NCBI GenBank assembly: GCA_021795465.1
Contig: JAJYPK010000006.1
Coordinates: forward strand, 1 to 48,035
Direction of reading: 5' to 3'
Origin: Bacillota bacterium
Lineage (GTDB): Bacteria > Bacillota > Sulfobacillia > Sulfobacillales > Sulfobacillaceae
DNA: 48,035 nucleotides
Part shown: one piece after another, positions 1-1,486 of the stretch
Position numbering within the stretch: position 1 is the stretch's first letter
How the letters are laid out: every line of letters starts with the position of its first letter
Notes under the pieces: generated by a model
Database searches by the model: none
What the model was told of the DNA's origin: nothing
The model's input: the letters and a program-made list of their open reading frames with translations, nothing else
Position numbers and translations under genes: made by a program

Positions 1-1244
1 CCCTCGCGCCCCATCAATCGGGCTACTAGTCGTTCCAAGCCGATAGCAAATCCTCCATGGGGTGGCATGCCATACTTAAATGACATGAGATAGCCCTGGT
101 AGGGTAATGGGTCAAGCTCTCGGCTGGCTAACGCTGTCAAATAGTCTCCGTAGTGATGCAAGCGTTGCCCGCCAGTCACCAGTTCCTGTCCACGGAAGAG
201 CAGATCAAAGCTTCGCGTGTATTCGGGACGGTTTGGATCGGGATGCGTATAAAATGGTCGTTTGGCAGTCGGATATCCCTCGACAAAGAGAAAGTCGGAC
301 CCATACTGAGTCTTGGCCCATGCGCCCAACCAAGCCTCGTGGGTCGGAGCGAGGTCCGGCTCTTCCCGGAGGTCTTCACCCAACGCGATCGAGAGCCGCT
401 CTAACGCCTCAGTAAAATGAATCACCGGGATTGACTTTGGCACGACGGGCCAAGATTCCAGGTCCATCGCTTCGGATTTCGCCTCCGCGAGCATGGTGCA
501 AAGAGTTCGGGTCAACACATTCATGACGGTGCGATGATCGGTAATAAAGCCGAATTCGACATCGAGCGAGGTGTACTGGCTTAGATGTCTGGCAGTGTCG
601 TGGGGCTCCGCCCGAAACACAGGACCCACTTCAAAAACGCGGCCCAACACACCCACCATCATTTGTTTATAGAACTGGGGGCTTTGCGCCAAATATGCGG
701 GTCGGCCAAAGTAGTCGACGGTAAACACATTAGCTCCGCCCTCAGTCGCGGTGTCCAAGAGTTTAGGCGTATGAATTTCCACGAAATCCTCACGTGATAG
801 CGCGTGACGGAACGCTTCAACGAGACGCGCAGTCAAGCGAAGCCATTGACGGGCTTGTGGGTGCCTAAGCGCTAAGGGCGCCAAATCCAAACGGGTAGGC
901 AGACCTGCTTCAACCCTAGGCAAAGAAAGGTCCAGCGGTATCCCTGCGGTGGGTTCTGCTAAGACCTCAAACAGGGGGTGATGAAGCTCTACCCCTCCGG
1001 GAGCCCGGGACTCTTTGACAACGTCGGCCTCGACACGCACGACCATCTCAGGGCGATAGGGGACGTCTTCAGATTTAACCACCACTTGCACCACATGGTG
1101 CCCGTCCCGCAGTACCACAAAAGTTACCCCACCGAGTCGACGGATGGTATGTACCCATCCTGCGGTGCGAACGCGCCCGGAAATATACTGAGACAGTACG
1201 CCAATGGGACACGGCATGTCTTCGAATTGATGAATGTTGGTCAT
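1..1244 (-). CDS. aspS: Aspartyl-tRNA synthetase, archaeal/nondiscriminating type (3' end off window)
   Basis: Class II synthetase charging tRNA-Asp, and probably tRNA-Asn, with aspartate in the cytoplasm. The frame runs off the left edge after 414 codons; the family is about 430 residues, so only the last few are missing. An N-terminal OB-fold anticodon-binding domain contains GWVHTIRRLGG (near residue 30). Motif 2 is FRAEPHDTARHLSQYTSLD and motif 3 is GFAIGLERL close to the end. It lacks the bacterial GAD insertion domain, so it is the short archaeal form. The histidine after GWV is the residue associated in this family with a nondiscriminating enzyme; that is an inference, and would require a GatCAB amidotransferase elsewhere. 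The start at 1244 is fixed by GGAGG at 1252-1256 with a 7-nt spacer. It is preceded by a T-box leader. Confidence 0.9.
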   Translation of the reverse strand, partial: MTNIHQFEDMPCPIGVLSQYISGRVRTAGWVHTIRRLGGVTFVVLRDGHHVVQVVVKSEDVPYRPEMVVRVEADVVKESRAPGGVELHHPLFEVLAEPTAGIPLDLSLPRVEAGLPTRLDLAPLALRHPQARQWLRLTARLVEAFRHALSREDFVEIHTPKLLDTATEGGANVFTVDYFGRPAYLAQSPQFYKQMMVGVLGRVFEVGPVFRAEPHDTARHLSQYTSLDVEFGFITDHRTVMNVLTRTLCTMLAEAKSEAMDLESWPVVPKSIPVIHFTEALERLSIALGEDLREEPDLAPTHEAWLGAWAKTQYGSDFLFVEGYPTAKRPFYTHPDPNRPEYTRSFDLLFRGQELVTGGQRLHHYGDYLTALASRELDPLPYQGYLMSFKYGMPPHGGFAIGLERLVARLMGRE

Positions 1245-1471
1245 GGGGAGTCCTCCAATTATCCTAACCTTGTGCGGGCGAGGTCAGGACCCGCGGTACC
1301 ACCGCACTTTGTTTGCCAGCTGGAGGCGTTGGCAAACCTCTTGTTTCCGCAGACAACCACGGAAGTAACCATTCCAGAGGGTCTCGACCGTGTCTTATGG
1401 GTCACACTCACACCCCGCGTGACTCGCTGGACCATAAGGCATTCACGACGAATAGTCTCCTTCATCATGGC
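1245..1471 (-). promoter_or_regulatory. T-box leader RNA of the aspartyl-tRNA synthetase gene
   Basis: On the minus strand the leader carries the T-box core GGTGGTACCGCGGG (around 1280-1303), which binds the uncharged tRNA acceptor end. Upstream lies a Stem I arm whose distal part contains AGCGAG and GGTGTGAG (about 1405-1428), the usual apical elements. The specifier-loop position, just before CTCTGGAA, reads GAC (Asp), though the following base is C rather than the usual purine. A 7-bp hairpin (1312-1318 with 1330-1336) has CCTCCA in its loop, complementary to the Shine-Dalgarno TGGAGG at 1252-1257. No U-tract terminator is visible before the start codon, so control may be translational. 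Confidence 0.8.
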
Positions 1472-1477
1472 GCACTT

Positions 1478-1486
1478 ATTATATCA
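1478..1486 (-). promoter_or_regulatory. Extended -10 promoter for the T-box/aspS transcript
   Basis: On the minus strand the bases read TGATATAAT, a perfect extended -10 (TGnTATAAT) just upstream of the T-box Stem I. No good -35 box is visible at the expected distance, which fits an extended -10 promoter. Confidence 0.6.

Follow-up and report, generated by a model that had tools for sequence, protein, structure and literature searches.

How might a T-box leader that shows no transcription terminator control the gene behind it? The question is raised by a leader of about 230 nt on the minus strand of the window (the whole 48,035-nt stretch of DNA that we analysed, from a Sulfobacillus relative), which runs from just past a TATAAT sequence (1483–1478) to the start codon of aspS (1244). 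The first-pass annotation had placed a T-box at 1245–1486, giving no strand, and the interval proved right: the Rfam covariance model RF00230 matched positions 1474–1271 of the minus strand over its full length (model positions 1–219) with 56.5 bits and an E-value of 1.2e-11, and it was the sole Rfam family with a match at the leader at E ≤ 10. Rfam lists nothing in the window at the gathering threshold, the 56.5 bits lying below the RF00230 gathering score of 93; 10 of the 13 RF00230 matches in the window's genome likewise fall short of it, some of them with clear U-tracts downstream. The leader contains the T-box core GTGCGG-TGGTACC-GCG...CCGCAC and is a T-box by every feature examined. Its parts and the gene that it precedes are as follows.

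1478–1483, minus strand: probable promoter −10 box, TATAAT (sequence reading)
1369–1468, minus strand: Stem I with k-turn (GAUGAAGGAG..CUCUGGA), specifier loop, AG bulge and GGGGUG distal loop (full-length RF00230 alignment)
1381–1383, minus strand: specifier GAC (Asp) (RF00230 alignment with a one-base deletion; frame as GAAGAC in relatives)
1338–1342, minus strand: AAGAG, fitting the RRRxG flank of Stem III (sequence reading; motif as given in the available text of PMC7583486)
1311–1337, minus strand: Stem III hairpin, GTTTGCCA..TGGCAAAC (fold; arms covary in 13 relatives)
1321–1326, minus strand: proposed cis anti-Shine-Dalgarno, CCTCCA, in the Stem III apical loop (no variation among the 13 leaders)
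1302–1307, minus strand: helix A1 5' strand, GTGCGG (RF00230 alignment, folds)
1295–1301, minus strand: T-box bulge TGGTACC, in which TGGT faces the tRNA 3' end, G-CCA (RF00230 alignment)
1281–1290, minus strand: alternative helix 5' strand, GTCCTGACCT, overlapping the A2 loop and the A2 3' strand (duplex energy, covariation)
1272–1277, minus strand: helix A1 3' strand, CCGCAC (RF00230 alignment, folds)
1261–1270, minus strand: alternative helix 3' strand, AGGTTAGGAT, ending 3 nt before the Shine-Dalgarno (SD) sequence (covariation)
1252–1257, minus strand: SD, TGGAGG, exact complement of 1326–1321 (duplex energy, comparison of 13 leaders)
3–1244, minus strand: aspS, for an archaeal-type aspartyl-tRNA synthetase of which the contig end leaves the first 414 aa (NF003483)

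A TATAAT-like box also lies just 5' of Stem I in most relatives; no −35 box at the leader promoter passed a consensus scan. The second flank of Stem III is formed by AA at 1310–1309, giving the arrangement AAGAG-Stem III-AAA that agrees with RRRxG-Stem III-AA. Between 1370 and 1343 on the minus strand 40 positions of the model are passed over in the RF00230 alignment, which suggests a reduced Stem II and F-box region; a CGUUA F-box is retained in other relatives.

The contig begins at base 1 of the window, truncating aspS, and the archaeal type proposed for its product was borne out by a match to NF003483 above the cut-off (465 bits against 353), together with matches to tRNA-synt_2 and the OB fold. 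The family comprises 34 genomes, in which we found 14 aspS loci of archaeal type. Because a bacterial-type AspRS occurs in 30 of these 34 genomes and an AsnRS in 32 (the genomes without a match are incomplete), the leader-bearing gene is, judged from sequence, one for a second, accessory AspRS beside the normal bacterial enzyme. Asparagine supply was discarded as the reason for a second AspRS, since all 34 genomes have a match to AsnB. The tRNA-Asn of the window's genome, read from its sequence, starts with U1, paired to A72, a pair that the available text of PMC4206432 describes as required for the tRNA-dependent route; it is therefore possible that the second AspRS is non-discriminating. In L107 (G031) aspS lies in frame-shifted pieces without a T-box match, pointing to gene decay or an assembly error, and this copy was excluded from the 13 leaders compared below. 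All 13 come from the one family, and L099 and L101 were counted as two of them despite being nearly identical over the compared stretch.

No terminator-like site was found in a scan of the minus strand, in keeping with the initial claim that no terminator with a U-tract precedes the start codon. Likewise, none of the 13 leaders has a U-tract between the alternative hairpin and the SD, where T runs do not exceed 3. By eye, 11 of the 12 other T-boxes of the window's genome do have U-tracts, and among 20 T-boxes taken from the best-scoring family matches, 19 show the core, 18 of these with a run of at least 5 T within 75 nt.

The complementarity first noticed between the loop CCTCCA (1326–1321) and the SD TGGAGG (1257–1252) is exact, with a duplex energy of −8.6 kcal/mol, and it exceeds chance, recurring at the corresponding position in 13 of the 14 family aspS loci: these 13 loci have a T-box matching the full RF00230 model, and all carry CCUCCA in the Stem III loop and a UGGAGG SD. 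In every one of the 13 leaders the CCUCCA-bearing Stem III is the hairpin directly before the antiterminator. Folded alone, it exposes CCUCC in its apical loop, with the first C partly paired in G000 and G028 and the final A of CCUCCA able to close the loop in seven leaders. The arms of the hairpin diverge among the 13 leaders yet covary, matched duplexes averaging −14.3 kcal/mol versus −8.2 kcal/mol when arms of different species are mismatched (0 of 20000 permutations as good), and within the Stem III alignment no column other than the six loop bases is invariant. Among 136 family start sites, the 13 leaders included, just 40 have a U before GGAGG, so that UGGAGG in all 13 agrees better with the loop than with ordinary SDs. 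The six loop/SD pairs never vary in the 13 leaders, and hence show no covariation. Nested folding of the 13 leaders gave no conserved partner for the SD, whose accessibility was erratic; a pseudoknot lies beyond nested folding.

A second element distinguishes two states of the leader. In the window, 1290–1281 and 1270–1261 can form an alternative helix of 10 bp (−15.8 kcal/mol), which pairs the A2 loop and the start of the A2 3' strand with the strand just 5' of the SD. Covariation supports it: matched pairs average −11.9 versus −8.6 kcal/mol for mismatched ones, with 0 of 20000 permutations as good among the 13 leaders, the helix being weak in G030 (−7.6 kcal/mol) and G023 (−6.8 kcal/mol). 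It reaches the SD in seven to eight leaders and stops 2–7 nt short in the others, lying 3–7 nt away in G000, G007, G030 and G018. By geometry the helix would be incompatible with A1 and A2 together, the 2–3 nt linker being too short for the antiterminator. The difference in fold energy between the antiterminator and the alternative state ranges from −5.4 to +5.6 kcal/mol in the 13 leaders, with both signs represented and neither state dominant, as expected of a reversible switch.

This layout is highly restricted. The 34 family genomes contain 391 RF00230 matches at E ≤ 0.001, about 378 of them besides the aspS leaders. A family search for CCTCC upstream of a T-box core returned 34 sequences, namely the 13 aspS leaders, 8 other T-boxes and 13 that were not T-box-like (assigned mostly by eye); of the 8 other T-boxes, 7 have CCTCC within a stem arm and 1 has it straddling the loop and the stem, so that it is wholly free in a loop in 0 of the approximately 378. 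Across the class (154 genomes) the loop/SD pattern occurred 41 times, 13 of them the aspS leaders, the other 28 being, by eye from the matched letters, either no T-boxes or cases in which CCTCC belongs to a stem arm and T runs come after it. Among 398 genomes sampled from the phylum, the pattern was found in the window and once more, in G176, and the reversed pattern gave 4 matches. The match in G176 was rejected as a further case, being taken as coding from its sequence, which looks like rho. Finally, a T-box-like core lies upstream in 43 of 80 aspS relatives taken from named genomes, and a loop/SD match of at least 5 nt is present in two of the 43, L014 (the G007 locus) and L022, which makes one in 42 outside the group. 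L022 is the T-box of a Chloroflexia aspS (2173–2408); its Stem III loop contains CCCUCC, its SD is GGAGG, and a terminator-like hairpin with UUUU is present. We did not accept it as an instance of the layout, as the hairpin with UUUU follows and a single case in 42 was taken as chance.

With a probability of roughly two in three, we favour a translational T-box whose Stem III loop would capture the SD when uncharged tRNA-Asp is absent. Uncharged tRNA-Asp would pair through its anticodon with the GAC specifier and through its GCCA end with the T-box bulge, stabilising the antiterminator (A1 and A2); Stem III would be held in the discriminator while the tRNA is bound, the SD would be free and the accessory AspRS would be made. 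With tRNA-Asp charged, A2 would open, and its loop and 3' strand could then pair with the strand just 5' of the SD to form the alternative hairpin. The SD, now beside this hairpin, would pair with the CCUCCA tip of Stem III, closing the ribosome-binding site, and the loop/SD duplex could stack on the adjoining alternative helix, with a tether to Stem III of about 19 nt of single strand. Because the alternative hairpin alone leaves the SD uncovered, another element must close it, a role for which the Stem III loop is the conserved candidate. Since the tether seems to let the loop reach the SD in the antiterminator state as well, reach alone does not explain the coupling to the tRNA. The comparison of leaders shows a T-box with its Stem III, an alternative helix, a loop/SD complement that never changes and no terminator. 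That this complement pairs in the RNA, that it does so chiefly in the alternative state and that tRNA-Asp is the ligand are inferences. The direction of the switch, ON with uncharged tRNA and OFF when free of tRNA, would be that of all known T-boxes.

Other explanations assign the SD, the hairpin or the loop to different roles. The A2 strand GGGUCCU (1292–1286) could pair with AGGACUC (1254–1248), overlapping the SD, and thereby act as a classical sequestrator to which the Stem III loop would be secondary. This 7-bp duplex has an energy of −11.3 kcal/mol in G000, and sister G007 has GACCU/AGGUC, changed on both sides; however, the pairing is confined to these two leaders of the window's genus, has no counterpart by eye in the 11 others and competes with the stronger alternative helix (−15.8 kcal/mol). 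We consider it unlikely, although in G000 and G007 the extra helix GGGUCCU/AGGACUC may hold the SD. It is more doubtful still that the leader controls transcription, with the alternative hairpin serving as an unusual terminator, either U-poor or Rho-dependent. A 10-bp hairpin does sit at the terminator position, and downstream of the SD G007, G029 and G018 have runs of 4 to 7 T, but the interval from hairpin to SD is free of U-tracts in all 13 leaders, the minus-strand scan was empty, and such a terminator would leave the invariant Stem III loop unexplained.

To that loop a different partner could be assigned, be it a trans RNA, a protein, a tRNA or the UGGAG of the Stem I base, and we rate this as the least probable of the explanations. 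The invariance of the loop by itself names no partner, and UGGAG is found at the Stem I base in several relatives; yet it is missing there in G007 and G018, for which reason we dropped pairing of the loop with the Stem I base, whereas UGGAGG stands before the start codon in 13 of 13.

Which tRNA the leaders read is a separate matter. For the window, the RF00230 model puts GAC (1383–1381) on the specifier columns with one deletion, in agreement with the first-pass annotation, and the covariance-model search which that annotation had named as a check yielded neither a canonical terminator nor a different specifier. The base following GAC is C in the window, and relatives in other phyla have, by eye, GAAGAC-A at the specifier position. 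A tRNA-Asp with anticodon GUC, matching the specifier, is present in the window's genome. As read from the model alignment for the window and ten others and by eye for the leaders of L095 and L098, the specifier is GAC or GAU in 5 of the 13 leaders (G000, G007, G030, G029 and G018) and GGC (Gly) in the other 8 (L098–L101 and L103–L106, in G003, G024, G022, G025, G023, G028, G027 and G006). The T-box bulge is UGGC in 11 of the 13, UGGU in the window and UGGA in one. In the subset of each genome's tRNAs that we read, tRNA-Asp and tRNA-Asn genes end in GCCA and tRNA-Gly genes in UCCA, so that the UGGU of the window would make merely a G-U pair with G73 of tRNA-Asp. Of the eight GGC leaders, seven keep a UGGC bulge that fits this G73; their codon suits tRNA-Gly and their acceptor-end bulge tRNA-Asp. 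We have tentatively set aside the idea that the GGC leaders bind tRNA-Gly, because its UCCA end misfits the UGGC bulge in those seven. The neighbours in 9 loci, inspected by eye, suggest no glycine link, and operon logic was dropped as an explanation of the GGC specifier. The window's genome contains two different tRNA-Asp(GUC) genes (L128, 1587–1664 and 1763–1839); the corresponding tRNA-Val/tRNA-Phe gap of G028 is empty, and we saw one tRNA-Asp of the second type in that genome.

A wider proposal falls somewhat short of even odds in our estimate. It holds that the leaders represent a second translational platform, in which the Stem III loop would be an anti-SD docking by pseudoknot, via a tRNA-controlled alternative hairpin, and in which the specifier would have drifted from GAC to GGC with the acceptor-end contact still made by tRNA-Asp, so that identity may be read by a middle-base G-U or mainly by the bulge. 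If true, the Stem III loop of T-boxes gains a job, and a T-box could shift from termination to translation by altering one hairpin tip and one short strand. The 13 leaders with their two specifier types are natural variants for studying tRNA choice, and the loop/SD layout offers a clean route to translational T-boxes overlooked by terminator-based annotation.

It had initially been supposed that a translational T-box on an Asp enzyme would be unusual. A T-box before an archaeal-type aspS is in itself no rarity: GAC-reading T-boxes precede this gene in Actinomycetota, Chloroflexota and other Bacillota. Some of them are apparently translational and of another design. Those of the Actinoplanes type share with the window leader the type of enzyme, the GAC specifier and the lack of an obvious U-tract, but carry ACCUCC at the 3' strand of helix A1 and not in Stem III; in L019, L027, L038 and L040, all reading GAC, the A1 3' strand runs into ACCUCC, likely a classical SD sequestrator. 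Archaeal-type aspS also has T-box-like leaders in L016, L024, L026 and L039, in which Stem I is apparently ultrashort (for example, GTTGACGGAGCAGACACTCCCGAG in L039). The aspS2/gatCAB T-box of C. acetobutylicum resembles our case in placing an accessory archaeal-type AspRS under T-box control; it is reported (Saad 2012, 2013) to be transcriptional and to read Asn/Glu.

With the canonical T-box (RF00230) the window leader shares the Stem I k-turn, specifier, AG bulge and distal loop, the Stem III flanks, A1, A2 and the bulge. It differs in that a terminator is lacking, that the Stem III loop is complementary to the SD and that, in the window's genus, the model skips the Stem II region. Review and database passages, including those of PMC7583486, present Stem III as an element whose stem and loop vary and whose flanks are conserved, and the passages on the T-box database indicate that sequestrators are not predicted there. 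A T-box before DAHP synthase in the window's genome (C18; L006, 1710–1790) has no U-tract, and a hairpin of −29.5 kcal/mol engulfs its GGAGG; a 16-codon ORF (MCWNELARHLKKAGFS) follows the hairpin and overlaps the DAHP synthase start. The arrangement resembles that of a classical translational T-box, and the ORF may encode a leader peptide.

No action of the Stem III loop on the SD is described in the portions available of the literature searched (PMC7583486, PMC7778990, PMC1262725, PMC10651847, PMC2494555, PMC4206432 and PMC2916919), whose coverage leaves subscription journals largely outside. The actinobacterial ileS T-boxes, in which hairpins sequester the SD according to the accessible text of PMC1262725, are among the nearest known systems: as far as this text and that of PMC7583486 describe them, they have no terminator, control at the start site is proposed and there are two folds. 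The window leader likewise has no terminator before its start codon, whereas a conserved SD-sequestrator hairpin is not found among the 13 leaders and is possible in G000 and G007 alone. In place of the SD-sequestering hairpin described for the ileS type, these leaders have a long Stem I and a Stem III loop as the conserved partner of the SD, a design that is best read, from the sequences compared here, as a new expression platform and not as one of the ileS type.
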